Origin: a virus
Length of the DNA stretch: 26,960 bases
Strand: one strand, 5' to 3'
Virus record (IMG/VR): IMGVR_UViG_3300027870_000316
Span: 1-26,960 of that record
Of the stretch, positions 3,834 to 26,960 are shown in pieces. The notes under the pieces are model-generated. The model did not search any database, was not told the origin of the DNA, and saw nothing but the letters and a program-made list of their open reading frames with translations. The translations under genes and the position numbers were made by a program. How positions within the stretch are numbered: the first letter of the stretch is position 1; each line of letters starts with the position of its first letter.

Positions 3834-4118
3834 TCAGTGTCCTTCCTGTTCGGTTGTCCTGGTGATTTCGGCGAGGAGCGCTGCGTAGCCGCAGACATCG
3901 ACCACGGAGTCCTCATGGGCTGGGTCATGCGCGAGGCGCGCCAGCTTCAGGTCGAGGAGACAAATGACGACCTGCGCCGGGGAGATCTCCCGGCCAAGGG
4001 TGGCTGACCAGCGCCTGGCGATGGCCGGCATGTTGCTGCCGGCGTCACCGTACTGCACGCTGCGCTCGGCAATGACCTGTGCGACATGCCTGAGGAACAT
4101 TTCCGCGGGGCTGCTCAT
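3834..4118 (-). CDS. DUF6378 phage protein
   Basis: 94 residues that match the DUF6378 pattern: a first helix with VIAERSVQYGDAGSN, then IARRWSATLG, and the signature KLARLAHDPAHEDSVVDVCGYAAL near the C-terminus. The family is found in phage early regions. Its conserved H/D residues in the HEDSVVD segment hint at metal or nucleotide binding, but no activity is established. The ATG overlaps the stop of the RuvC-like gene (ATGA), so translation is probably coupled, and it is followed directly by the 185-residue hypothetical gene. Confidence 0.85.
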   Translation of the reverse strand: MSSPAEMFLRHVAQVIAERSVQYGDAGSNMPAIARRWSATLGREISPAQVVICLLDLKLARLAHDPAHEDSVVDVCGYAALLAEITRTTEQEGH

Positions 4119-4630
4119 GCGACACCTCCATTCGTGTCGAGAGCCCAGAGCAGGATCGCGATGGCGTCGGCTTCGTTGTCATCGACCGGGTCGAAGCCGC
4201 GCTGACGCACCGCAGCGATCATCGCCTGCTTGTCGGCGTTGCCCTTTCCCGCCGCGTAGCGCTTGATGGTTCCGACCGGCACTCCTTGGTACGGGATGCC
4301 GCGTGCCTCGCACCAGGCGGTCAGTGTGGCGAGCAGTCCGCCGTAGATATGGGCCGCGTCGGTGCCGATGTGGCGGCGCACTTCTTCCACGTAGACGGCA
4401 TCAACGCCGCCGGTGACCTCCAGCGTCTGGTCGAGCCACTTGCCGAAGCGCAGGTAGCGCATGCCGCCACCCTCGTAGCGGCTGGGCCGGAACTCCGCGG
4501 TGCCATGGAGGATGCGGCAGCGGTCATTCCTGACAGCCCAGCCTGTGGTGCTGCCGAGGTCGAGGGCGAGGATGGATGGGGTCGAGGGGCTGTGCCCTGC
4601 AACAGGCAGAGTCTGGGCATTCGAAGCCAT
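4115..4630 (-). CDS. RuvC-like Holliday junction resolvase
   Basis: 171 residues from the ATG at 4630, favoured because GGAG precedes it; an ATG five codons upstream (4645) is possible. The RNase H-like fold of RuvC is readable: LALDLGSTTGW with Asp24, YVEEVRRH with Glu82/Glu83, and DDNEADAIAILLW with Asp151/Asp155 as the metal-binding residues. The size equals that of bacterial RuvC. Such phage resolvases cut four-way junctions or branched replication intermediates before packaging. It overlaps the DUF6378 gene by 4 nt and follows the repeat cluster and small ORF downstream of the primase-helicase gene. Confidence in the fold is high; the exact substrate is inferred. Confidence 0.92.
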   Translation of the reverse strand: MASNAQTLPVAGHSPSTPSILALDLGSTTGWAVRNDRCRILHGTAEFRPSRYEGGGMRYLRFGKWLDQTLEVTGGVDAVYVEEVRRHIGTDAAHIYGGLLATLTAWCEARGIPYQGVPVGTIKRYAAGKGNADKQAMIAAVRQRGFDPVDDNEADAIAILLWALDTNGGVA

Positions 4631-4719
4631 GATGGTCTCCGTCATGAAGTGGATGGAGGAATGGTCGGTGGGGGTGCCGGCCGGCGGCAGGGTTCAGTCA
4701 GCCGGCGGGATGGACCTTG

Positions 4720-5034
4720 CTATCCATCGTCAAACCAGGCGGCCCCCCGAGAAGGTGTCACACCCCGCTTCAGCGGGTGACACCTTCCCTTTAGGGAGGA
4801 AAATCCGAAATCTGAAATCTGCTCAAACCTGCTGAATTCATTGATCGATTCCAGATTGCGGAGCAGATTTCGGAAAGTTGTTTCCGAAATCTGGAAGTTA
4901 CTTTCCAAGTCATTGAAACAACTCGGGAAAAGCCAGATTCCAGATTTCGGAATCTGGGCAGATTTCGCCAAATCTGGTGCAGATTCCGGAATTCTGGGGG
5001 CAGATTTCGGAACTTTCCGCAAGGTACGGATCAT
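4720..5034 (-). CDS. Possible small repetitive protein overlapping the repeat cluster
   Basis: 104 residues. The ATG at 5034 overlaps the stop of the primase-helicase gene as ATGA, and GAGGAGG lies eight bases upstream inside that gene, which is a textbook coupled start. The first 35 residues repeat a short theme (KSAPRIPESAPDLAKSAQ, then IPKSG), then come FQISETTFRNLLRNLES and FEQISDFGF. There is no recognised domain. The repeats in the protein come from the CAGATTTCGG DNA repeats, so the frame may be open merely because the DNA is repetitive. Either a real phage protein carries origin-like repeats in its gene, or this is non-coding DNA with a chance start. Codon use is far less GC-rich than in the neighbours. 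Confidence 0.4.
   Translation of the reverse strand: MIRTLRKVPKSAPRIPESAPDLAKSAQIPKSGIWLFPSCFNDLESNFQISETTFRNLLRNLESINEFSRFEQISDFGFSSLKGRCHPLKRGVTPSRGAAWFDDG
4751..4787. repeat. Long stem-loop beside the repeat cluster
   Basis: Arms GAAGGTGTCAC (4751-4761) and GTGACACCTTC (4777-4787) pair perfectly; after a 3-nt bulge the stem continues as CCGC/GCGG around a TTCA loop. There is no T-run, so it is a poor intrinsic terminator. It lies between the repeat cluster and the RuvC-like gene and may be an operator, part of an origin, or an mRNA structure. Confidence 0.7.
4805..5010. repeat. Iteron-like repeat cluster, candidate replication origin
   Basis: The 10-mer CAGATTTCGG occurs exactly at 4864-4873, 4941-4950 and 5001-5010, and its complement CCGAAATCTG at 4805-4814 and 4884-4893. 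Near matches lie at 4852-4861, 4934-4943, 4959-4968, 4968-4977 and 4980-4989. Two copies face each other as a perfect 13-bp inverted repeat (4864-4876 and 4881-4893) with a 4-nt loop. The stretch is more AT-rich than its surroundings and adjoins the primase-helicase gene, as iterons of phage and plasmid origins do. No DnaA box was seen inside it. The origin function is inferred. Confidence 0.7.
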
Positions 5035-7355
5035 GCCAAATCCTCCTCGCGGTAGACCCATACGGCGGGGTTTTCGACAGGCAGGACGGCACCCGTCTGA
5101 GGGCACTTGTAGTGGCTCGGCAGGACCGCGAGGCGCTCCGGGACCAGTTCACCGGTCGCTTCATCGACCCGGTCCTCACCGGTGCCCAGCTCCATTCCCT
5201 CGACACAGAGGTAGCCATACTTGCTGCGCTCGGCGGCAAGCCCGATCTCGGTCGCCGTGGTGCCGCGCACGAACTTCACGTAGCCCTTGGTGGTGAGCAC
5301 GCCGAGACGGTCGCGGATCACCGTCTGGCCGCCGAGCCCCGCCTTGTTCTCGAAGGCCTCGGCGAAGCTGGTCATGGTGTAGACCTTGCCCGCCAGGGCC
5401 TCGTCATAGATGAGACCGAGGATCACCTCGTTCTTGCGCATGCGCTCGGCATCATGCCGGGCACCCGTCTCCTTGCGCACCAGTCGCTCGTTCAGCGGAT
5501 TGAGCTCGACCCAGCGGCCGTTCTCCTTGTCGATGAGCTTGGTGGGCAGCGCCGGGCCGTGGCGGAGTTCGATCTCCAGCCGGCGGTGGGTGCTGTCCTC
5601 TTCCGGACGGTGCATCAGGAGGCCCGACGTGTAGAAGCCACGCAGCGCACTGGCGCCGGACAGCGCCTGGAACGGATCCTCGAGGACGGCCTTGCGGTTC
5701 ATCTTCCTGGTGTGGTGGGCAAGAATGACGCCACAGTCGGGTGCCACGGCCTCGCGCAGGCGTTCCACCCGCTCGGTCAGGAAGCACATCATGGCGGCGT
5801 TGTCGTTCTCGCCGCCGCCGTCCTCGCCGCCATCGAACAGATTACGGATGGGGTCGAGACAGATGATGTCGGGCGGGGCGTCGGGGAAACGGGCGCGCAC
5901 GGCCTCCACGGCCAACGCGAGGCCCTTGTCATCGAGGATTATGCGGAGCTTCGGCGTAGCGAACAGGTTGTCACGCGCGCCCGCAATTACCGCCTTGTCC
6001 AGCCTGATCTGCTGCATGCGCTCGCGGAGATAGTGGTACTGGATCTCCGCCTGCAGATAGAAGATGCGCAGCGCCTGCGGCGGCGTGAAGTCGAGAAACG
6101 GGACGCCAGCGGCCATGTGGGCCAACAGGCTGATCAGGAAGTCGCTCTTGCCCACCTTGGGCGCACCGCCGAGGACCAGTAGCCCGCCCGGCGTCAGGAC
6201 GCGCGGCGCGATGATGTCCGGCGGCATGGGCGAGCGATCATCGAGAAGCTGGCCGAAGGAGAACACCGGCAACGGCTGAACCTCAGCCTGAGGTTCAGCT
6301 TCGTTGCGCAGCAAGGCCGGACCATTCTTCCTCACATGCAGGGCCCACAGCCGGTCGGATTCCTGCGCCAGGCGCTCCTGTGACCAGGCGGGCCGCAACA
6401 TGGCGGCGTTGTACTGGCACATGGCCTCCCAGCCCTCGTCGGGGCTCATGCGGCCCTCGTGCACCTGACGCACGAAGTGGCCGATGGCGGCGCTGGCGCC
6501 CTCGAAGCGCGTCCATGCGTCAGTGCCGCCCTCGTGCACCGGGGTCGTGAGGATGGCGTCGATCGTCGGCCTGGCAGGCCCTTCCGCCGGGGGTTCGGCG
6601 CCCACGCCCGGGATGGGCGGCATGGCGGCAACACGCTCGGCAAACTCGGCCAGGTCGACTTCCACACCATTGTGCTCGCGGATCTGCACAAGTCGCTGGA
6701 ACCCACCCTTGTGATAGACGGAACCGGCAACGCGGATCGGCTGGTGGGCAGAGCGGAAGTGGGTGTCGCCGCCGACCTTCATGGCGATGTCGCCACGCAG
6801 CCGGCAGAGGGTATTGAGATCGATGCCCGCGGCGGCCTCGGTCAGCTTCCACCAGACATGTAGCTTCACGGCGCCCTCAGGGGTACGACCGCCGCTCTCT
6901 ACGATGAGCGTGGGCGTGCCCAGATAGCGAACCAGGTGCGCCAGCTTGGCCAGGATGTCGCCAGCGTCCAGATCGACCACGACGGCCTGCATCTGCACGA
7001 CTTCATGGGCGCGCGCCTGTCCCTGCGCCGCCACCGTGCCGGGGATGACATAGAGCGCGGCACCCTCGCGCCACGCCCAGGTAGCGAAGGTCTTCAGCTT
7101 GTCGAGGGCTGAGGCATCGGCGTCGATCCAGATGTTGTTGGGCTTGCCGTCCCTACCCTGCCCCTTGTCCACGAAGCCGCGGACGGGGATCAGGCCCTCG
7201 CAGTAGCCAAACACGACATCGAGAAAGACGCCAAGCTGCTCGGCATCCGGCTCGACACCGAACGGATCTACCTGCAGCGGAGCGTCGTTGAAGTCGCGCC
7301 ACGGGTTGAAGTGGATCACTTCGCCGGTCGGCTTGTCATCACTATCGTCTGTCAT
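5031..7355 (-). CDS. Primase-helicase (RepB-like primase domain fused to RepA-like RecA-fold ATPase)
   Basis: 774 residues from the ATG at 7355, which overlaps the stop of the nuclease gene (ATGA); the open frame continues upstream but only as an out-of-frame shadow of that gene. The N-terminal half resembles the archaeo-eukaryotic-type primase of RepB/phage proteins: VVVDLD at 125-130 supplies the metal-binding acidic pair, followed by IVESGG and the HVWWK strand at 166-170. The C-terminal half is a RepA/AAA_25 hexameric helicase type: Walker A GGAPKVGKS at 396-404, Walker B DIICLDP at 496-502 and the HHTRK sensor at 547-551. It would prime and unwind DNA at the element's own origin. The repeat cluster immediately after its stop is the likely site of action. 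The order of domains is clear; biochemical roles are inferred from the families. Confidence 0.9.
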   Translation of the reverse strand: MTDDSDDKPTGEVIHFNPWRDFNDAPLQVDPFGVEPDAEQLGVFLDVVFGYCEGLIPVRGFVDKGQGRDGKPNNIWIDADASALDKLKTFATWAWREGAALYVIPGTVAAQGQARAHEVVQMQAVVVDLDAGDILAKLAHLVRYLGTPTLIVESGGRTPEGAVKLHVWWKLTEAAAGIDLNTLCRLRGDIAMKVGGDTHFRSAHQPIRVAGSVYHKGGFQRLVQIREHNGVEVDLAEFAERVAAMPPIPGVGAEPPAEGPARPTIDAILTTPVHEGGTDAWTRFEGASAAIGHFVRQVHEGRMSPDEGWEAMCQYNAAMLRPAWSQERLAQESDRLWALHVRKNGPALLRNEAEPQAEVQPLPVFSFGQLLDDRSPMPPDIIAPRVLTPGGLLVLGGAPKVGKSDFLISLLAHMAAGVPFLDFTPPQALRIFYLQAEIQYHYLRERMQQIRLDKAVIAGARDNLFATPKLRIILDDKGLALAVEAVRARFPDAPPDIICLDPIRNLFDGGEDGGGENDNAAMMCFLTERVERLREAVAPDCGVILAHHTRKMNRKAVLEDPFQALSGASALRGFYTSGLLMHRPEEDSTHRRLEIELRHGPALPTKLIDKENGRWVELNPLNERLVRKETGARHDAERMRKNEVILGLIYDEALAGKVYTMTSFAEAFENKAGLGGQTVIRDRLGVLTTKGYVKFVRGTTATEIGLAAERSKYGYLCVEGMELGTGEDRVDEATGELVPERLAVLPSHYKCPQTGAVLPVENPAVWVYREEDLA

Positions 7356-8122
7356 TGTGCCAGGCTCCAGCAACGTTCGGCCCACCCGCACATGCGGCAC
7401 TCGAAGTGGTCGCGGTCGCGGGCCAGCCGCGGCAACAGTTCGCCAGCGTCCGTAGCGCGGAGGATGCGGACGGCCCGGTCGCTCATGCGCTGGGCCAGCT
7501 CGGCGTTGAACGGCACCAGCTCGTGATATAGTTCTGCAGTATCCTTGTTGATGGCCGTAAACAGCGCCGGGTTCGATGCCAACCCCGGCACGGCGGCATC
7601 CATGTAGGCCTGGTAGAGCGCGATCTGCGCGGCGTAGATCGGCTTGGCCACGGCGACACCGCTCTTCACTGTCTCGCGCCAGTTCTTCGCGTTCATGGTC
7701 TTGCATTCCCACAAGGCAGGAACGCCCAGCTTCAGTGCCCCCGGCGCGGCAGCGACGATACCGTCAACATGGCCGCGGATGCGGCCGCCCGCCACGGAGA
7801 AGCCGAACTGCTGGCCGTCGGGATCATTTCCCTTGCGGGTGTAGAGATCGATGCCGGCAGCACGGAGCCAGCGAATCGCAAGGTCCTCGAGCGCATGGCC
7901 GATGGCGAAGATGCGCAGCGTGCGACCGGGAAAGTCGGCGCCTTCATCCTTCGATGCACCGGCAAACTCGAACTGAAGGGCGCGCTCGCAAGCATGGCCG
8001 ACACGGGATCCCCCAAGGTACTCGCGGCGCGGCCGGCTGGCGTTCTCATCGACCAGTGCCGCATCGAGGATGCTGTTCAACACCTCGGCGAAGTTCGGAC
8101 GGTGATTGAAGTCCAAAGTCAA
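7352..8122 (-). CDS. Cas4-like Fe-S PD-(D/E)XK exonuclease
   Basis: 256 residues from a TTG at 8122. The TTG overlaps the upstream stop as TTGA and has GGAGG seven bases before it; no ATG is usable before residue 143. Nuclease motifs are GHALE at 75-79, GHVDG with Asp120, WECK with Glu139 and Lys141, and the YAAQIALYQ helix at 163-171. Cys45 together with Cys242, Cys245 and Cys251 (C-x2-C-x5-C) reproduces the four-cysteine iron-sulfur arrangement of Cas4 and AddB-type nucleases. There is no cas gene nearby, so it belongs to phage recombination, where it would resect DNA ends for the Sak4-like ATPase and the candidate ssDNA-binding protein encoded upstream. Fold call is strong; the Fe-S cluster is inferred from cysteine spacing. 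Confidence 0.9.
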   Translation of the reverse strand: MTLDFNHRPNFAEVLNSILDAALVDENASRPRREYLGGSRVGHACERALQFEFAGASKDEGADFPGRTLRIFAIGHALEDLAIRWLRAAGIDLYTRKGNDPDGQQFGFSVAGGRIRGHVDGIVAAAPGALKLGVPALWECKTMNAKNWRETVKSGVAVAKPIYAAQIALYQAYMDAAVPGLASNPALFTAINKDTAELYHELVPFNAELAQRMSDRAVRILRATDAGELLPRLARDRDHFECRMCGWAERCWSLAQ

Positions 8123-8535
8123 AACGGCACCTCCGGGGAATTGTCGTTGCTCTTGGCGATGTCGCGTATCGCCTCCTGGAAGCCGCCGACGGCGACTTCG
8201 ATGATCGTGAACACCTGCTGCTCCGAAAGACTGTCGAGCCGGACGTGCCAACCGATTTCTTCCATCGTCTCGGCCACGACTTTCATGGCCTTGCGGATGG
8301 CGGCCTTCTCCTCCTCGGTAAGGTCAACCATGGCGGATGACCTCCGCACCCGCTGCCAGAAGAAGGTCTGGCAGGTAGTGGAGCAGAACCACACAGAGGG
8401 TCGCGGCCTGCTCACCCGTTGCGGTTCCTGCCAGCCGAAGCCATGCGCCGGACCCCGGCACACGGCACAGAGCACGAAGCGGGGCTGCCAGCGGACGAAG
8501 CGCTCGCGTGCGGTGATTTGAACTGGGGCTGCCAT
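8119..8535 (-). CDS. DUF6511 zinc-binding phage protein
   Basis: 138 residues. The N-terminal half has a C-x2-C pair (LCAVCRGPAHGFGW) followed by a second C-x3-C pair (FCSTTC), a small treble-clef-like zinc site typical of DUF6511. The C-terminal half is a helical acidic segment (EEEKAAIRKAMKVVAETMEEIG, shortened here) ending in EVPF. Members sit in phage early operons next to nuclease and helicase genes; no activity is known. It starts 3 nt after the helicase stop and overlaps the nuclease start as TTGA, so it is translated as part of the same chain. Confidence 0.82.
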   Translation of the reverse strand: MAAPVQITARERFVRWQPRFVLCAVCRGPAHGFGWQEPQRVSRPRPSVWFCSTTCQTFFWQRVRRSSAMVDLTEEEKAAIRKAMKVVAETMEEIGWHVRLDSLSEQQVFTIIEVAVGGFQEAIRDIAKSNDNSPEVPF

Positions 8536-12270: not shown

Positions 12271-13036
12271 CGAACCACTCCTTGATTTTGGTGAAACATT
12301 CCGCCCCCTGGGCGATGGCCTTGACGTCGAGGCGGTGAAACGGGCCCGCCCTGGCCTCGCGCATGCCTTCGCGAGCGAGGGCAAGGTTGTCGTCCGTGGC
12401 CCATTCGGCGAAGGCGCGGAACGTGCCGGTGACATGCTGCCAGGCTGCCTGTTCCGGCGTTGGCGGGACGTAGAGCGGGTTCCGGCGGCTGGGCTTGCGC
12501 TGGGGACGCAGTCCCCGCATGGCCGCGTCGACGACCATCTTGCGCAGCGCCGCCCGCGTCGGCTCCTCGCCACGGGCCAGCTTCTCATCGAGCGTGCGCC
12601 GCACGATGCCCGGTTCCACTTTCTCGGCATCGCGAATTAGGCGCGCGTCGTGGATCTCCTTGTGTGTGAGACCCAGTTCGGCAGCTGTCGCAACCTTCTT
12701 CTCGTCGGGAAGAAGGTCAGTGCGCTGCCCCTGGGCCGAAGCAGTCCCGTCGATACGGGCCTGGTCATATTCATCGGCCAGACGCCGCTTCGCCTGTGAT
12801 TCAATTGCAAGGGAATCCGCCTGGGCCCGGTGCGCGGCGGCGATCAGCTCGTCATGGGCGTGCTTGGCATTGGCAAGGCGGGCTGCGCGCTTTGCTGCGT
12901 CATACGCGAACGATGCAACCTCCTTGGCTTCTAGCACCTCGGCGGCGGTGCGTGCATTTGCGAGCGCCGCGGCAGCATGGTCGACGAGCTGCGGAAGGCT
13001 GGACGCGCTCTGTTCGAGGGTGGCGGGGAAGCTCAT
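12263..13036 (-). CDS. Hypothetical coiled-coil phage protein
   Basis: 257 residues, start overlapping the previous stop as ATGA with AGGTG upstream. The first 110 residues are a long alanine-rich helix or coiled coil (repeated AKxAAxxA patterns). Next comes TAAELGLTHKEIHDARLIRDAE at about 117-138, which looks like a helix-turn-helix, then a basic RPQRKPSRRNPL linker, and a tail with WQHVTGTFRAFAEWA. Similar proteins occur in the early operons of rhizobial prophages without a known role. The HTH-like part and coiled coil suggest a DNA-binding dimer, possibly ParB/KorB-like in logic; this is inference. Confidence 0.83.
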   Translation of the reverse strand: MSFPATLEQSASSLPQLVDHAAAALANARTAAEVLEAKEVASFAYDAAKRAARLANAKHAHDELIAAAHRAQADSLAIESQAKRRLADEYDQARIDGTASAQGQRTDLLPDEKKVATAAELGLTHKEIHDARLIRDAEKVEPGIVRRTLDEKLARGEEPTRAALRKMVVDAAMRGLRPQRKPSRRNPLYVPPTPEQAAWQHVTGTFRAFAEWATDDNLALAREGMREARAGPFHRLDVKAIAQGAECFTKIKEWFDA

Positions 13037-13512
13037 GCGTCACCTGCGATGAGCTTGAACAACTCCTTGCCGGTGCGAACGGTGCGGGCCGGCTCGAACA
13101 CCTTCCGGATGTGCGGCGGCCAAGCCGCGTACTTGCGTTCGGAAACCTTAAGGCTAACCTCCACGTAATCGCGGGGATCCTCGCCTTCGGCCTTGATGCG
13201 CTCAACCAGCTGGCCGAGCTCGTGCTGGTCCCACTCGACCCTCTTCGGGAGTTCCGCGATGACGGCGACATCGCCGTCCCGGAAGCGGGCGACCCCGAAG
13301 TCCTTGTCGTCGTCTGCGCGCGCTGCGCGAGCGCGGTCGGCGTACTTCTTCGTCAGGGCGCCGTCGAGCCACGCTACCGTGAGCTTCGCTTTGCGCAGGC
13401 TGTCATCCGCCTCCTTCTGGAGACGGGCCAGTTCATCGGCAGGAAGGGCAGCAAGTTCGCTGGCGGGGAGACGCTGTAGCGCCTCGAGCGAGATGATGTT
13501 GGGAATGCTCAT
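13033..13512 (-). CDS. Conserved hypothetical phage protein
   Basis: 159 residues, with GAGG six bases before the ATG. The N-terminal half is helical and charged (LPADELARLQKEADDSLRKA); the C-terminal half has the sequence PKRVEWDQHELGQLVERI and then KVSERKYAAWPPHIRKVFEPAR, a pairing I associate with phage early proteins of unknown role. No enzymatic motif is visible. It starts 8 nt after the HTH gene and overlaps the coiled-coil gene by 4 nt, so it is the second gene of the replication operon. Confidence 0.85.
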   Translation of the reverse strand: MSIPNIISLEALQRLPASELAALPADELARLQKEADDSLRKAKLTVAWLDGALTKKYADRARAARADDDKDFGVARFRDGDVAVIAELPKRVEWDQHELGQLVERIKAEGEDPRDYVEVSLKVSERKYAAWPPHIRKVFEPARTVRTGKELFKLIAGDA

Positions 13513-20145: not shown

Positions 20146-21072
20146 CTAAGCGGCTAACTCATAAGATAGTATTCGCTGACCAATCGCTGTGACACTTTCC
20201 AGTGCAAGTAGACGCAGTTCTTCCTGATCTGCTTGCGTTTCAAGAGCCTCAAGAGCCTCACTGATATTCGATTGCTGTTGCACCGTAACCTGAGGATCGT
20301 CTGACGACGGCCGCTGCAGGATCATTTCATGGTGGCGCACCAATACAGGACTTCTGTCTTTATCTCGCTCAACTTTTAGGTCCCAGAGCCGCCTCTTTAT
20401 GAGGTGGACAGATTTGGTCAAAGCGCCCGCCTGGAGAGTTCCGAAATTGGCAACTAGCCTAGGGCCGGCAAAATCGATGATCACATGATGGCTACCGCCC
20501 CTCTTTCTTCGCTCACCTCCGTCCTGCAAATCTTGACTGAAATATCGGGTATAATTCTCCCGATGTTGACGAATATAATCACAAACGAGAAATGGCAGGC
20601 GATCACGAGGTGCACTTGCCTTTTTGGCATCCACCGCCAACCGATCTTCGTCTAGTTCTTCGCCGCTAGGCACAGCCTCGTACAACGAGGAGAGAATAGC
20701 CATCCAGCTCGCTGCAATATGCTGAAGGCTGGTCCCTTCCGCCTCTCGACATTCTCCGACGTAGATTCCCGACACCGCAGATTCAGGCCTTCGGATTGCA
20801 TCAACAGAACGTTGAGCGAGGTCCCGGCGCAAACTTTCTCCCGCAATTCTGACGGCCATAACTGCAGCGCTCGCATCTTCACCGAATAGGCATTCAAGCC
20901 GATGCAAGGCGTTAGCTATTTCAACGTGAAAGCCGTTCGCGTTAACAACTGCCACCCCAGCAACCAGTCGCTCATACGAACCGGAAATCGGCTCAAGAAT
21001 AATCGGAGCCCAGAGTGCCTTGACACTCTGGTCCAAAGACGGGAATTCCCTTTGATCTATGAGAGTTATCAT
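20146..21072 (-). CDS. Unknown partner of HipA-like kinase (DUF3037-like context)
   Basis: 308 residues, ATG overlapping the kinase stop (ATGA). The N-terminal 65 residues, with LWAPIILEPISGSYERLVAGVAVV then a helix with LECLFGE, recall the DUF3037 layout (a 'not-much-data' strand giving a statement about versions of a gene product), which often accompanies HipA_2-type kinases; the match is by layout only. The rest is unrecognised: an AASWMAILSSLYEAVPSGEE helix, a basic GGERRKRGGSHHV patch, and a long acidic helix at the C-terminus. It could be a substrate, inhibitor or effector of the kinase. This and the kinase gene have about 45% GC in sampled 60-base lines, against about 68% in a sampled phage line. 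Confidence 0.8.
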   Translation of the reverse strand: MITLIDQREFPSLDQSVKALWAPIILEPISGSYERLVAGVAVVNANGFHVEIANALHRLECLFGEDASAAVMAVRIAGESLRRDLAQRSVDAIRRPESAVSGIYVGECREAEGTSLQHIAASWMAILSSLYEAVPSGEELDEDRLAVDAKKASAPRDRLPFLVCDYIRQHRENYTRYFSQDLQDGGERRKRGGSHHVIIDFAGPRLVANFGTLQAGALTKSVHLIKRRLWDLKVERDKDRSPVLVRHHEMILQRPSSDDPQVTVQQQSNISEALEALETQADQEELRLLALESVTAIGQRILSYELAA

Positions 21073-21863
21073 ATTATCACTGGCACTCCCAATGCCTTAC
21101 TAGCGTGCTGAATTATACTACCAGCTCGCTGCTCAATGAAGTCTTTCAGTACGTTGACGCTTTCTATAGGCAATAAGTGATCGATGTGGCTTTTTTCCGC
21201 TGTAGAGGCGGCATCAAAGTCACGAACCAATGCCTCAAATGCTGCTACCTGTTGAGTACGCTCTTTCCTTTGTGCGTCATCTAGCTCTGGCGTCATCCAT
21301 TCCGAGAGCCTGTTTGCATATTCATTGCCGGCATTCAATTCCTCCGGTTTCCAATTCGGCCCTCCAAAACAATGCCCATGGTCGATCAACCAAATACTTC
21401 CTGGGCTGCCAAACAAGAGATTTCCTGGGTGGCGATCTATATTTGCTATCCATGCGTCAAACGCAAAAAGACGTCCGAGATCCGCCCACATGGCAATTTC
21501 CCGGAGCAACACCTTTGCACCACTCGGATTATTGTTGAGGTGAAATGTTACATTGGGAACTTTCACATCGGCACTTACGAATACAAGCCTCCCTCCATCG
21601 GGAAGCATAGGCGCCGACTTCACGGGAAGAATGTCCGGACGCGCCAATCCGACGAAACTATCTGGCACAGGTAATCCGACGTGTCGCGCCAAACAGTGAA
21701 CCACCAACTCATTGCAAAGCTGGATTAGGTTCAGGTCTTTGATAATGGAACTCCGAACTGACTTATCCGAAAGCAACACTTGGCCGCGATATGTACCGTT
21801 CACATTTCCAACAGAAAACGCAGTCGCGCCGAGTAGCACGGTGGCGAGTTCAATTTGAGTCAT
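21069..21863 (-). CDS. HipA-like (HipA_2 type) kinase
   Basis: 264 residues. Kinase-fold residues can be read: Lys42 in SSIIKDLNL as the ATP-binding lysine, Glu52 in NELVVHCLARHVGLPVP, catalytic Asp143 and Asn148 in NIDRHPGNLLF, and the metal-binding Asp161 in WLIDHGHCF. This is the compact HipA_2 family, shorter than E. coli HipA (about 440 residues) and without its N-terminal subdomain. Such kinases phosphorylate proteins and may arrest growth; whether this one is a toxin is unknown. It overlaps the 308-residue partner by 4 nt and follows the dGTPase gene by 46 nt. It is likely one element of the defence operon. Confidence 0.85.
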   Translation of the reverse strand: MTQIELATVLLGATAFSVGNVNGTYRGQVLLSDKSVRSSIIKDLNLIQLCNELVVHCLARHVGLPVPDSFVGLARPDILPVKSAPMLPDGGRLVFVSADVKVPNVTFHLNNNPSGAKVLLREIAMWADLGRLFAFDAWIANIDRHPGNLLFGSPGSIWLIDHGHCFGGPNWKPEELNAGNEYANRLSEWMTPELDDAQRKERTQQVAAFEALVRDFDAASTAEKSHIDHLLPIESVNVLKDFIEQRAGSIIQHASKALGVPVII

Positions 21864-21909
21864 TTTACATTATCCGCCAGTTTGCAAAAAAAGCGACGCT
21901 ACACTTCCT

Positions 21910-23244
21910 TCAAATCTTGTCGAACACAGAACCCATGCGAGGGCTAAACAATCGTTCATATGTCTTCAAGAGGAAGGCATCGGTCATGCCAGCGACGTAA
22001 TCGCAGACGGCGCGAATACCGTCAGTATCATGGCTGGTCCGAGCATTCCTAGGGAGCAGAACTGCTGGTTCTGACGCGATCGCCTCAAAGACCGAGACAA
22101 CCATCTTCTGTCCCTTGAATTCGAGATGCTGCACTTCTGCACTCAGAATTACTGCCACCTTAATGAGCCGCTGAAGCGCATCCAACATTTCCCGCTGCTC
22201 AGGCGGAAGCTTCACATTGAAGCGAATTAGAGGTTCTGCGAATTCCGGATTCTCATCAACTCTTAGACTTGTAATGAAATGATGCACCAAGCGCCCGATG
22301 TAATGCTTGCGGTCTTTGCTATCTCCGAACAACGCCGACAAAACGGATCCATATAGGTTGTTGTGACTTCCATCCGGATCACGCCGCTTAAGCATCTCCA
22401 AGAACGAGGAGCACTTTTCTTCAGGAACATAGGCACGGAAATCGGATTCTTTTACGAGCCCCATTGCGATCGCGTCTTCCAAATCGTGAACGCCGTATGC
22501 AATGTCGTCAGCGACATCCATCATACTACAGTCCAGTGACTTGTATTTCGTCTTTGAATGCTTGTCGGGAACACCCATGATCGAAGTAAACAGTTTTCGA
22601 TCCTCGCTACTCAATGGGGCGAGTACCCAGTCAACAATATCCTGCTCACTATCTAGGTAGCACTTGGGAGGCTTCGACCGCTTTCGATCAATAATCCTAA
22701 TAGACTCAGGTTCAGATTCCATCACCGGACATATCTTTGGATTACAGACGGCTCGATAGCTGGCAGGATACTTGAGAACTCCGAGCAATGTTCGTCTAGT
22801 GAGGTCTGCACCGTGGTTTTTCGAGAAATTTTCGAGGCGCGACAGAATGCGTAAAGTCTGTCCATTTCCCTCGAAGCCACCATCATCACGCATACAAAAA
22901 TTCAACGCAACCTCTCCACCGTGACCGAAGGGAGGGTGTCCTAGGTCATGTGCAAATGCGATCGCCTGAATTAGACTCCCGGTGGGCAGAATATCGTGGA
23001 CAGGATGTCCGGCCAAATCACCTAGCTGACGAAGCATGCTATTGGCGATTTGCGCAACTTCGAGATAATGCGTCAACCGCGTGCGATAGTAATCGCTATC
23101 ACCGAGGTTTAGAACCTGCGTCTTTCCCTGCAGGCGACGGAACGAACCCGAATGCACCAGACGAGCATAGTCAACGTCAAAGGGTGTCCGTTTGTCATCA
23201 GCTTGCTGCTTCCAGTCTCCTCTGCGCTGCTCCCACTCACTCAT
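21910..23244 (-). CDS. dGTPase, HD-domain triphosphohydrolase
   Basis: 444 residues. N-terminal signature DYARLVHSGSFRRLQGKTQV; HD-site residues His59 (THYLEVAQIA), His99-Asp100 (FAHDLGHPPFGHGGE) and Asp246 (MDVADDIAYGVHDLEDA) match the bacterial dGTPase family, which cleaves dGTP to deoxyguanosine and tripolyphosphate. The length equals that of typical Dgt-like proteins. By established knowledge, dGTPases and related enzymes can act as anti-phage defences by draining dNTPs during infection. Here the gene sits 35 nt after a restriction endonuclease and 46 nt before the kinase pair, so a defence role is more probable than housekeeping. Whether nucleotide pools are regulated by the neighbouring kinase is open. 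Confidence 0.93.
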   Translation of the reverse strand: MSEWEQRRGDWKQQADDKRTPFDVDYARLVHSGSFRRLQGKTQVLNLGDSDYYRTRLTHYLEVAQIANSMLRQLGDLAGHPVHDILPTGSLIQAIAFAHDLGHPPFGHGGEVALNFCMRDDGGFEGNGQTLRILSRLENFSKNHGADLTRRTLLGVLKYPASYRAVCNPKICPVMESEPESIRIIDRKRSKPPKCYLDSEQDIVDWVLAPLSSEDRKLFTSIMGVPDKHSKTKYKSLDCSMMDVADDIAYGVHDLEDAIAMGLVKESDFRAYVPEEKCSSFLEMLKRRDPDGSHNNLYGSVLSALFGDSKDRKHYIGRLVHHFITSLRVDENPEFAEPLIRFNVKLPPEQREMLDALQRLIKVAVILSAEVQHLEFKGQKMVVSVFEAIASEPAVLLPRNARTSHDTDGIRAVCDYVAGMTDAFLLKTYERLFSPRMGSVFDKI

Positions 23245-23279
23245 GTCGCGCTCCGTGTGTTCTGACAGTGCCCGCAGTT

Positions 23280-24074
23280 CTATCGATACTCTCTAATTGC
23301 TTTCCTATCGATCTCGTCTGCGGGAACGAGCTTGTAGTGGCGTTCATCGACCACCTTAACCTGTCCGTCGTCTAAGGTGAGCTCAAAGAGGGCAATCACA
23401 CCCTCGCTCATGAACTGAGCAGCGACAGGCCGGCAGCGCATTTCGGGGAATTTTTCGTCCGCAAAGGCAAGGTCCTGGCCAGTTTGGACAACTCCGATTT
23501 GATCTTTTCCACCCTTTGCTTGCACAGGAATGACATAGTGGCAACCGTACTTGTCCAGGCCAATGTAGAGCTCATCGATTTCGATTTGCCCGATGCCTTT
23601 CACAGTCGTGCGCAAGTGGTTTTGCAAACTGTAGGTGGTCAGACCCAGAAAAGTATCGATCAAACGATTATAACGAACAATGGCTAGCAGCGCCTGCTCG
23701 TCGTCGAGTGCATAGGCGCGGATGAGTTCCGGAGTTGCATCCGGTATACCGATACTGATCAGGTTCTCGCTCGGCAGGATGCGAGTGATCTTTACAAGCC
23801 GAAACCTATAACGTGCTCGCCCGGCTCCCTCGATAATCCACTCGAGGCCATCCGGTTGGGTCGCGACAATTCCCTCCGGCAATGCAACACGAAATCGAAA
23901 GGAGTAGATGAGATCTCCGAGGTTTTTCGGCAGCTGGATTTTGAGCTTGGCCGCAAACGTTTCTATCTCTTCGCGAGCGAACTCAAAGTCAGTCACCCCC
24001 TTGGACCAATGACTGAAGAAGATCTTTTCGATCAGAATGCGATATCGGTTTGCCGCCGGGTCTTTCTTAGCCAT
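23280..24074 (-). CDS. PD-(D/E)XK-like restriction endonuclease
   Basis: 264 residues; its ATG lies 8 bases inside the methyltransferase gene. The catalytic region appears at 163-187: an IEIDELYIG strand with acidic residues, a YVIPV strand, then QAK at 185-187, fitting the PD-(D/E)XK pattern in a (E/Q)xK variant. An N-terminal part with KIFFSHWSKGVTDFEF and the central IIEGAGRARYRF strands are unrecognised. Direct adjacency to a C5 methyltransferase and Vsr makes it the probable cognate Type II restriction enzyme. Its recognition sequence cannot be inferred. The fold call depends on one motif and context, so it is less certain than the methyltransferase. Confidence 0.72.
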   Translation of the reverse strand: MAKKDPAANRYRILIEKIFFSHWSKGVTDFEFAREEIETFAAKLKIQLPKNLGDLIYSFRFRVALPEGIVATQPDGLEWIIEGAGRARYRFRLVKITRILPSENLISIGIPDATPELIRAYALDDEQALLAIVRYNRLIDTFLGLTTYSLQNHLRTTVKGIGQIEIDELYIGLDKYGCHYVIPVQAKGGKDQIGVVQTGQDLAFADEKFPEMRCRPVAAQFMSEGVIALFELTLDDGQVKVVDERHYKLVPADEIDRKAIREYR

Positions 24075-25431
24075 TGACCACTTTCAGCCTCTTGCGAGCT
24101 TCTTCGATCTCACTCTGCTTCCGCTTTTTGGCGCCACTCTTGCGATCCCGCTTAGATGACGGCTTTTTGACACCGAAGTGTTCGGCTGCTTCCGAAAGTT
24201 CCATATAGAGAAGCTTCTCATCACCGAGAGAAAGGGCGCCCGAAGGCCGCTTGAGCTTCACGCCCAACGCTTCAATGACTTGCCCTGCTATTGCGCGCGC
24301 TAACGGAGGCGGAACCGCGTTGCCGATTTGCCGTGCGCCATGCCATTTGGTCGAGTGGAACCTAAACCAATCAGGGAACCCGTGGAGTCGGGCCATCTCA
24401 CGAACGGTGATGCAGCGGTCATGCTCGTAGTGAATCGGGCGCGGACTCGTGAAGGCACCTCTCGCGCCATCGGTCCCAGCCCGTAACGTATTTGAGAGGC
24501 CGACCGGCGAAAGCTTGAAGAACCGGCTGATCGGCTCGACGTCGCCAGGTGCTGTCGAGTGAAAACGCCCACGCGAAATATCGGTATGAACGGTTCGCGC
24601 ACTCGACGTGAGGAATGCCGGATTCCACTCGCGAACATAACCGTAATGCCAAGCGTCGTTTGTCAGGCAACGCAACTCCGCCGCATAGGTGGACGGCTTC
24701 CTAAGTGAAGACGTCTTGACGATATCCGTCTCCATGAGCGTCTCGAAGCGCTCTGCATCTGGTAAATCGCCCAGCGCGTCTTTGCAATTCGGTCCCGCCG
24801 GCAGACCTTTCAAGAGACGCTTCCCATCGGCGGGATTGCTAATTGCCAAAGGGTATTCGGGAATTTCCGCACCCTTCTTGGCTCCGAAAAGAATCAATCG
24901 CTCTCGGTGTTGCGGAACGCCGTATGACGATGCGTTCAAAACGCGCCAGGGCAGACGCACAGAATAGCCCCGCTCTCCGAAGGCGGCGACGAGTTCCTCC
25001 AGGAATGCTCGATGCTTTCCGACTGTAAGACCTTTGACGTTCTCAAATACGAAGGTCTTCGCGTCGAGCTCGGCAACCAGTCGCACGAAGTCGAGAACGA
25101 GGCTGTTGCGCGGGTCATCGAGGACACGTTGACCGATCAGCGAAAATCCCTGGCAGGGCGGTCCGCCAAATACGCAATCGATCTTGCGATCACCCAAATC
25201 CGCAAGCCGGCGTATATCCTGACCTGTGAGGTCCGAAACGGAACGTGGAATGACGGGAGTGTTCGGGAAGTTGAACTTGTGCACGGCACAGTGGATCGGA
25301 TCGATTTCCACGGCGGCAGCCACTTCGAAACCGGCCTGCTCGAACCCTAGGCTCATGCCTCCCGCCCCCGCGAAGAGGTCGACAGCAAGTGGCCGTAAAA
25401 GCTTGGTTTTTGTGGGGGCGCTCCGATTCAT
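24067..25431 (-). CDS. DNA (cytosine-5)-methyltransferase
   Basis: 454 residues from the ATG at 25431, 22 bases after the Vsr stop; a GTG at 25485 would add 18 residues but would overlap vsr. Family motifs are all present: DLFAGAGG (I) at 18-25, PPCQGFS with catalytic Cys93 (IV), FENVKG at 129-134 (VI), QHRERL at 174-179 (VIII) and QIGNAVPPP at 368-376 (X). The target recognition domain lies between about 180 and 340. A lysine-rich tail (residues 425-454) is unusual and could bind DNA. It marks the host genome against the adjacent endonuclease. The methylated site is unknown, but a Vsr partner suggests deamination at its target is a problem. Confidence 0.97.
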   Translation of the reverse strand: MNRSAPTKTKLLRPLAVDLFAGAGGMSLGFEQAGFEVAAAVEIDPIHCAVHKFNFPNTPVIPRSVSDLTGQDIRRLADLGDRKIDCVFGGPPCQGFSLIGQRVLDDPRNSLVLDFVRLVAELDAKTFVFENVKGLTVGKHRAFLEELVAAFGERGYSVRLPWRVLNASSYGVPQHRERLILFGAKKGAEIPEYPLAISNPADGKRLLKGLPAGPNCKDALGDLPDAERFETLMETDIVKTSSLRKPSTYAAELRCLTNDAWHYGYVREWNPAFLTSSARTVHTDISRGRFHSTAPGDVEPISRFFKLSPVGLSNTLRAGTDGARGAFTSPRPIHYEHDRCITVREMARLHGFPDWFRFHSTKWHGARQIGNAVPPPLARAIAGQVIEALGVKLKRPSGALSLGDEKLLYMELSEAAEHFGVKKPSSKRDRKSGAKKRKQSEIEEARKRLKVVNG

Positions 25432-25453
25432 GTCATCGATGTTAGCCGTTTGT

Positions 25454-25885
25454 TCACGCCTTGTCGATCGGAAATTTCGGGGCACCCAAGAACGTCTGTA
25501 GTCGCATGTTCAACGCGTCTAGGTCTGAGAGCTCGCACTGCCAGAGGGTGAGAACATCCCAACCAAGCTTCGTGAGGGCGTTCCGGTTTCTAGAGTCGCG
25601 ATCCTTGTTCGCTTTGAGCTTCGGCCCCCAATAGTCGAGGCGAGATTTGGACGCCCGGCCCTTGGCGCAGCCATGCCCGTGCCAAAAGCACCCGTGAACG
25701 AAGATGACCTTCTTTCGTCCCGGCAACACGATATCGGAGGAGCCCGGCAGGTCCTTTCGATGAAGTCGAAAGCGATAGCCAGCCGCGAACAAGGCGCGGC
25801 GAACCGTGAGTTCGGGACCGGTGTTCTTCGTTTTGACGGATTGCATAATCCGCCGCCGCTGCTCTGGCGAACGGGTATCGACCAT
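25454..25885 (-). CDS. vsr: Very short patch repair endonuclease Vsr
   Basis: 143 residues from the ATG at 25885. The family's signature residues keep the E. coli numbering: Asp51 in GSSDIVLPG as catalytic metal ligand, then FVHGCFWHGHGC with His64 and His69 and zinc ligands Cys66 and Cys73, and a further Cys118 in LWQCEL. Vsr nicks 5' of T:G mismatches produced by deamination of 5-methylcytosine, protecting the sites of the methyltransferase downstream. It is the first gene of the minus-strand defence operon. The Shine-Dalgarno is weak (GAAGG adjacent to the start), and no clear promoter was found in the 181-base region up to the divergent gene. Confidence 0.95.
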   Translation of the reverse strand: MVDTRSPEQRRRIMQSVKTKNTGPELTVRRALFAAGYRFRLHRKDLPGSSDIVLPGRKKVIFVHGCFWHGHGCAKGRASKSRLDYWGPKLKANKDRDSRNRNALTKLGWDVLTLWQCELSDLDALNMRLQTFLGAPKFPIDKA

Positions 25886-26066
25886 GCCTTCAATATAGCC
25901 CGGTCGGCACAAGGCTACCACGGGATCGAAAGCGCTCGCTACCGGCTCCCCGGGTCCCTCGCCCCCACACTTGCGCTCAGTAGGCTTCGGTCCTATTCTC
26001 ACTATAGGTGATTTAACCGACTTGCGGCCTGCGCGTCCCGCGCGAACAGCTAAACAGGAGGCCCGC

Positions 26067-26960
26067 ATGGCCGACTTCCCCCTTACCTTGAGCTATAGCT
26101 ACTTCGGCGCACCCGGCTGCGGCGGATCCACTACGCTTTCGATTTCAGTCGACAACCGCGGCAACATGAGTGTCGTCGATGATTTACCTTCGGAATACTG
26201 CGATCCTGATGAAGCCCACGCTACTTCGGATCCCGACTTCCGACCGCGCGTGGGCGAGTTTCGTCGCAACGCAGTCCTCCCTGCTCCGCAAGGGTGGCGA
26301 GGCGTGATCGACTATCTCGCTGCCAACGAGATCGTCGCCTTCTTCACAGATGGCGACATTCGGGGCGAATATCCATGGCCGGACAGTATGGAGGTGGAAG
26401 GTACCGGTTCGGTAGCATCTGATCTAATTGCAGCAGCCTGGAGCGGTAGTCCCCTTTTAGATATCGCGCAGGCCTTAGCCCAATTGCCCGACACCGTCCT
26501 TGAGGCTCTCCGCGTGCGTTGTGGGTCGCTTTGCGGCAGTGCGGTACTGCAGCCGCTTCTGCGCATCTGGAACCATGCCCAAGAACTCGATGTCCCCTTC
26601 GAAATCATCGTCGGGCGCGCGCACCGCTTCGATTTCCATCTTCCCTCGATGCTCCGGGATGTCCGCGCACTCTCAGCCGTCCTCAATGCTGAAGCTTCAG
26701 CTAGTGCGAGGCGGCGAGCCTGGATGATCTCACCCTATGCTCCTGCCATCGATCTTATCGTCGGGCATTGGCGCAGGGCGCATCCCGCCACCTCGACGAA
26801 CACCCAGATCGGCCAGGGAATGCGCGCGGGTGCCCTGAAGCGGTTCCTTGAAGCTTATGCCATTGAGCACGGCCAGCTTCCGAACGGCGTACATAGAGTA
26901 GATGGCGGTCCAGCATCGGCGTTCGACGTGGACTTCAGCGCGCTGGCTGAAAAGGGCTGA
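26067..26960 (+). CDS. Unknown protein divergent from the defence operon
   Basis: 297 residues, start chosen at the ATG at 26067 because AGGAGG lies six bases upstream; the ORF ends with TGA at the last base of the window. N-terminal part: FPLTLSYSYFGAPGCGGS, a strand-rich region with two cysteines (SEYCDPDE being the second). The middle is helical (SPLLDIAQALAQLPDTVLEALRV) and there is a FEIIVGRAHRFDFHLPSMLR segment. No family recognised, no signal peptide, no membrane helix. Its position, back to back with vsr, allows a role in the same island or in an adjacent system outside the window. Confidence 0.82.
   Translation: MADFPLTLSYSYFGAPGCGGSTTLSISVDNRGNMSVVDDLPSEYCDPDEAHATSDPDFRPRVGEFRRNAVLPAPQGWRGVIDYLAANEIVAFFTDGDIRGEYPWPDSMEVEGTGSVASDLIAAAWSGSPLLDIAQALAQLPDTVLEALRVRCGSLCGSAVLQPLLRIWNHAQELDVPFEIIVGRAHRFDFHLPSMLRDVRALSAVLNAEASASARRRAWMISPYAPAIDLIVGHWRRAHPATSTNTQIGQGMRAGALKRFLEAYAIEHGQLPNGVHRVDGGPASAFDVDFSALAEKG

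Follow-up and report, generated by a model that had tools for sequence, protein, structure and literature searches.

A candidate replication origin and its probable reader, a C-terminally variable primase-helicase, in temperate phages of Alphaproteobacteria

The complete IMG/VR record IMGVR_UViG_3300027870_000316 (26,960 bp, hereafter the window), which is probably a prophage fragment, contains a dense array of short repeats in the 385 bp that separate the end of a primase-helicase gene from the start of a RuvC-like gene. This array very probably serves a temperate phage of Alphaproteobacteria as its replication origin, with the adjacent primase-helicase acting as its own initiator. An earlier note, made from the letters of the window alone, had already taken these iterons as the likely origin of the element, and the proposal is now supported by the excess of repeats, their conserved spacing in relatives and their co-variation with the C-terminus of the helicase, which make a role in replication probable.

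The array (4804..5012) is iteron-like in its copy counts, in its comparison with shuffled sequences and in the positions conserved among relatives, and is made of CAGATTTCGG half-sites in both orientations. Exact copies are found at 4805-4814 (-), 4864-4873 (+), 4884-4893 (-), 4941-4950 (+) and 5001-5010 (+), and the number of copies within these 206 bp (4805-5010) rises from 5 to 9 when one mismatch is allowed and to 13 when two are, in agreement with the five exact and at least five near copies in both directions of the first count. The perfect 13-bp inverted repeat announced at 4864-4893 was also recovered, its arms (4864-4876 and 4881-4893) being separated by 4 nt. The top 8-mer of the array is present in 7 copies, whereas 2000 dinucleotide shuffles gave 1.9 on average and never more than 5, and the 12-base copies CAGATTTCGGAA are absent from the rest of the record. 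The region had been described as AT-rich, which holds relative to its surroundings (45% G+C versus 60.5% for the window) but does not set it apart, as other stretches of the window are lower in G+C. The cluster adjoins the primase-helicase gene as proposed, with the clarification that it lies 3' of that gene, before ruvC, and not 5'. Multiple short repeats above chance beside the gene of a putative initiator are what iteron origins present.

Relatives were collected in a viral scan (80 loci, helicase identity 64-87%) and in a genome scan, which added a further 80 loci, mostly from genomes of Rhodobacterales and Hyphomicrobiales. In about 140 relatives, most of them alphaproteobacterial prophages, these two genes likewise flank a dense array of repeats. 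A RuvC-like gene follows the helicase in the great majority of the viral loci having enough downstream sequence, and follows helicase and array in 72 of the 74 genome loci, usually at a distance of 300-500 bp. Repeated 7-mers exceeded those of shuffled sequences in 114 of 115 distinct intergenic regions at p<0.05, and in 107 at p<0.005, which is the opposite of the result that the earlier note had named as fatal to an origin, namely relatives with the same helicase and no repeats at this position. The repeat words themselves vary among relatives, and include CAGATTTCGG, AATCCGGATT, CAAAGCGCAA, CAAAACACGG, CACTCATATG, CCTAACTCCTC and CAGTTTCGG, among others. One relative (L163) sits in a metagenome-assembled genome labelled Thermoanaerobaculia, which may be mis-binned; the other hosts are alphaproteobacterial. 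Among cultured phages, the sole relative of the helicase is a partial one in Wolbachia phage WO, with a different arrangement.

The comparison of spacing in related prophages, which had been suggested as a check, gave a conserved layout in most array types. In most TAAA-type arrays the positions and orientations of the half-sites are constant around IHF-like motifs, with half-sites at about -92, -71, -58, -50, -32, -25, +25 (or +16 and +23), +45, +57, +97 and +104 with respect to the first motif, and a second motif at +81 from the first. Orientations agree across the words CAGATTTCGG, CAGAATCCGG, CAAAACACGG and CAGAACACGG, and in part for CAAAGCGCAA, and the arrays of CACTCATAT and CCTAACTCCTC keep the IHF-like pair in a somewhat different layout. 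This pair was recognised in 74 of 143 loci, with a spacing of 79-81 bp. Exact IHF consensus matches occur 0.59 times per region in the relatives and 0.007 times in shuffles (a ~90-fold excess), and 149 of 157 near matches share one orientation, a pattern that suggests binding by IHF. In the window, the first motif is TTTCAATGACTTG (4906..4918, minus strand), with one mismatch to the consensus WATCAANNNNTTR, whereas the second, ATTCAGCAGGTTT (4825..4837, minus strand), has three mismatches, and its position was assigned through alignment to L005 and L009. The A+T content is moderately higher around the IHF-like sites.

The primase-helicase gene (5031..7355, minus strand) encodes a protein of 774 aa (MTDDSDD...) with a RepB-like primase region, an AAA_25 RecA-type helicase and a predicted C-terminal DNA-binding region. 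Although its reading frame stays open as far as a GTG at 7712, conservation begins at ~7355, and this, together with an overlapping upstream frame, places the true start at about that position. The upstream gene (7352-8251, minus strand), which overlaps the likely start codon, gives a weak match to PD-(D/E)XK nucleases that falls slightly short of the Pfam cut-off (E 0.0007). The helicase assignment comes from the AAA_25 match (E 4e-21), found as well in 50 of 50 relatives scanned, and from a match to PHROG 239, DNA primase/helicase (1.6e-29), while the primase assignment is based on sub-threshold RepB_primase matches (E 0.019-0.05) and on the PHROG annotation. Neither SF3 helicase nor Toprim primase nor RepA_N domains were matched in the protein or in the relatives scanned. 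The full-length structure model is of modest quality (a predicted local distance difference test score, pLDDT, of 72), and an AlphaFold2 model of the C-terminal 204 residues reaches a pLDDT of 81.6 and contains helices H58-84, H91-97 and H107-120 plus a wing, so that the core of this region is predicted to be a winged helix. With VIA-align, this model matched many winged-helix DNA-binding proteins at middling Z scores of 6-7, which support the fold class and no specific family; Foldseek returned nothing with an E-value <0.001 for the same model, and a search of PDB sequences with a profile of the family gave no convincing match.

The last ~150 codons (5031..5495, minus strand), with the predicted winged helix and a beta-rich distal part, are the sole part of the protein that tracks the array type. 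Among 54 non-redundant viral loci, C-terminal identity corrected for identity of the helicase body correlates with array similarity (rho 0.51), a value reached by none of 2000 permutations (maximum 0.15), and the genome set reproduces the correlation (0.47). Windows of 40 residues give a rho of about 0 up to residue ~694, of 0.17 for 694-734 and of 0.28-0.51 past 734. The control proteins do not follow the array (RuvC 0.004, DUF6511 0.04, DEAD helicase -0.10, Sak4 0.03). A conserved phage protein with no assigned function (13033-13512, minus strand) is weakly associated with array type (rho 0.34, n=14), which is probably small-sample relatedness. On trees, a better guide than the permutation test although built with FastTree, the array type changes 25 times along the tree of the helicase body and 12 times along that of the C-terminus, the minimum for 13 types. 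Over 7381 pairs, dissimilar arrays accompany a distal-domain identity of at least 0.9 in 0.4% of cases and an identity of 0.4-0.6 in ~99%, and in the few apparent exceptions of this larger set the arrays are still 67-80% identical in sequence. In the pairs L012/L013, L011/L016 and L033/L044, bodies that are ~92-96% identical go with different arrays and with last ~150 residues that are ~45-75% identical; pairs sharing an array are mostly 82-100% identical over those residues, even when the body has diverged. Co-variation of the array with this domain, and not with the body or nearly all neighbours, makes the primase-helicase the probable reader of the repeats, as would be expected of a replication protein that binds its origin, and strongly supports that they are specific to their cognate initiator.

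With respect to the determinants within the reader domain, the distal beta-rich part predicts the array better than the winged helix (partial correlations of 0.39 and 0.09, respectively). In the pair L104/L058, the distal domain is nearly identical and the recognition helix changes from GQTVIRDRL to GRTIVHDRL, while most sites switch from CAGATTTCGG to CAGAATTCGG or CAGAATCCGG, the core of most repeats being off by 1-2 bases. On the other hand, L041 and L051 have bodies 96% identical and identical recognition helices, with CAAAACACA repeats in one and CAGGAAATC in the other. This pair rules out the recognition helix as the sole determinant of specificity, and is a natural pair for placing part of the putative specificity in the distal beta-rich part. 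Both elements appear to matter for the array type.

Nucleotide identity profiles of several close pairs delimit the stretch that has changed. Identity is ~90% up to position -450 from the stop codon, falls to 34-60% over most of the array and is back at 80-95% some 200-300 bp past the stop, where a stem-loop begins. Reader domain and array would thus have been exchanged jointly as a cassette of ~650 bp, corresponding to 4804..5495 in the window.

That the array occupies the 5' region of the ruvC operon raises a first alternative, that the repeats are an operator through which the primase-helicase, or some other protein, controls transcription of that operon, with no origin function. Paired half-sites and IHF are also features of regulatory regions, but the array-tracking domain forms one protein with a replicative primase-helicase and not with a repressor, and a scan for sigma-70 promoters and terminators found none on the operon strand, though alphaproteobacterial promoters may escape it. 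As a substitute for an origin, an operator is therefore unlikely; an operator role alongside origin function is possible.

A second alternative, that array and C-terminal codons travel together through mere adjacency and that another protein reads the array, we regard as very improbable. The correlation does peak in the codons closest to the array, and partial linkage is also seen for the stem-loop on its opposite side. However, a distal domain kept (at least 0.88 identity) with a changed array occurs in 0 pairs of the viral set, against 18 pairs in which the stem-loop is kept (>0.8) despite a changed array; RuvC, encoded on that opposite side at a distance of a few hundred bases, gives no signal; in L104/L058 a changed recognition helix goes with a changed repeat core; and among the other neighbouring proteins none follows the array convincingly.

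The stem-loop region just mentioned is G+C-rich (4731..4800, minus strand), has perfect 11-bp arms (4751-4761 and 4777-4787), lies directly past the array and is found there in most relatives inspected. A small alternative hairpin overlaps its 5' arm, it carries no T-run terminator, and an alignment of 21 sequences gives 13 consensus pairs, 3 of them with compensatory changes, a modest covariation. Stem-loops of two types occur, CCCCTAAAGGGG... and CCCATACTACGTATGGG..., and in both an X-X'-X layout permits two mutually exclusive hairpins. The stem-loop may serve as a priming site or as an attenuator. That the whole array is instead a structured leader RNA or attenuator, whose inverted repeats would form base pairs at the RNA level and regulate ruvC, is hardly credible: several repeat pairs, and the stem-loop downstream of them, could fold as hairpins, and the latter shows some compensatory changes, but some array types consist of zero-spacer palindromes (ACTCATATGAGT, AATCCGGATT) that are poor RNA hairpins and good DNA sites, each array has one word that changes together with a protein domain, and neither an Rfam match nor a terminator was found in the region.

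Several observations weigh against the array being an origin read by the helicase. The C-terminal codons border directly on the array, and a degree of joint inheritance is to be expected from such linkage; the stem-loop too is partly co-inherited with the array (rho 0.44), and the permutation test makes no correction for relatedness. In the window, the second of the IHF-like sites is degenerate; no IHF pair could be recognised in the CAGTTTCGG arrays, and repeats are weak in several rhodobacterial arrays. Neither DnaA boxes nor a clear AT-rich unwinding element were found, though the former would be dispensable if the helicase loads itself. The G+C skew around the array, another of the suggested checks, is weak, confounded by gene strand and uninformative.

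The most likely pathway for such an origin would start with the binding of the half-sites by the winged-helix and beta-rich region of the protein, while IHF-like bending would draw the blocks of the array together. The bound protein would then form a hexamer through its RecA-type core and melt the DNA, and the N-terminal primase region would prime at the origin, perhaps on the exposed stem-loop. Exchange of the cassette between phages would alter the specificity of the origin and leave the remaining replication machinery unchanged.

Among known systems, the alpha protein of satellite phage P4 combines a Toprim primase, an SF3 helicase and a C-terminal winged helix, and short repeats (ori/crr iterons) are recognised at its origin. 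The protein described here would resemble it in having the three parts in one chain (the helicase clear, the winged helix from the model, the primase sub-threshold), but with a weakly RepB-like primase region and an AAA_25/RecA-type helicase, and with the IHF-like motifs and the fixed array geometry as features of the present system. No sequence relationship between the two was found, and since SF3 and Toprim domains are absent here, only a likeness in working is claimed and not membership. P4 also figures in the comparison made in PMC4234260. In the crenarchaeal plasmid pRN1, the origin is located just downstream of the gene for ORF904 and is a structure-conserved stem-loop (PMC4234260). ORF904 is a primase-helicase with a C-terminal winged helix, and the predicted arrangement here recalls it in the downstream location of origin and stem-loop, but its helicase is SF3, no iterons are reported and nothing downstream other than the stem-loop is required. 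In the PLE satellites of V. cholerae, the RepA_N DNA-binding domain co-varies with the ori, and only cognate pairs replicate in experiments (PMC8263062); the RepA_N/ori replication module is also described in PMC7145576. As in that modular replicon, the DNA-binding domain and the repeats of the putative origin co-vary here and would be exchanged jointly, the rest of the initiator being conserved. The PLE initiator differs in its RepA_N type, in lacking primase and helicase and in its N-terminal reader domain, and PLEs have two specificity groups versus ~10 here. The plasmid RSF1010 has a RepB-like primase and a RecA-type helicase. Its oriV is served by RepA, RepB' and RepC as three proteins, with iterons read by RepC and stem-loops for priming (PMC4234260). 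Separate helicase and primase activities, and iterons plus stem-loops, would be common to both systems, but all functions appear to be united in one protein here. In lambdoid phages the iterons lie inside the O gene, and the O protein, without helicase or primase, loads the host DnaB via P. Type-specific initiator/iteron pairs exchanged between related phages are the shared trait, whereas intragenic iterons and an initiator lacking helicase and primase are not. Exchange of a winged-helix domain in a phage initiator has been noted earlier (PMC10684548). No description of the present system was found in a literature search of open-licence papers.

As for the rest of the window, the first gene past the array encodes the RuvC-like Holliday junction resolvase (4115..4645, minus strand; PHROG 159, E 1.7e-34). 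This gene, the primase-helicase and a Sak4-like annealing protein are encoded on the minus strand; the plus strand carries genes for a serine recombinase, an XRE repressor and an IrrE-type peptidase. A defence-like gene block (20146-26068, minus strand) comprises a HipA-like kinase (21069-21863), a dGTPase (21910-23244; PADLOC E 1e-143), a type II restriction enzyme (23280-24074), a cytosine methyltransferase (24067-25485) and a Vsr endonuclease (25454-26068), all on the minus strand.

For a large group of alphaproteobacterial prophages, the analysis offers a candidate origin and initiator that can be tested, together with a natural data set in which one protein domain and the DNA that it targets vary in step while the scaffold stays nearly constant, of use for learning rules of DNA recognition and for the design of replicon sets whose members are compatible with one another. 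With middling confidence we propose, more broadly, a widespread alphaproteobacterial prophage family with a primase-helicase of RecA type that recognises its own origin. The last ~150 residues of this protein would make up, jointly with the origin, an interchangeable specificity cassette, and the ~10 words would stand on closely similar, IHF-punctuated scaffolds from which a recognition code could be read through natural variation. The exchange of reader domain and origin, known in PLE satellites and lambdoid phages, would thereby extend to a self-contained primase-helicase, and may be driven by escape from rivals that target the origin or by incompatibility between co-resident prophages.
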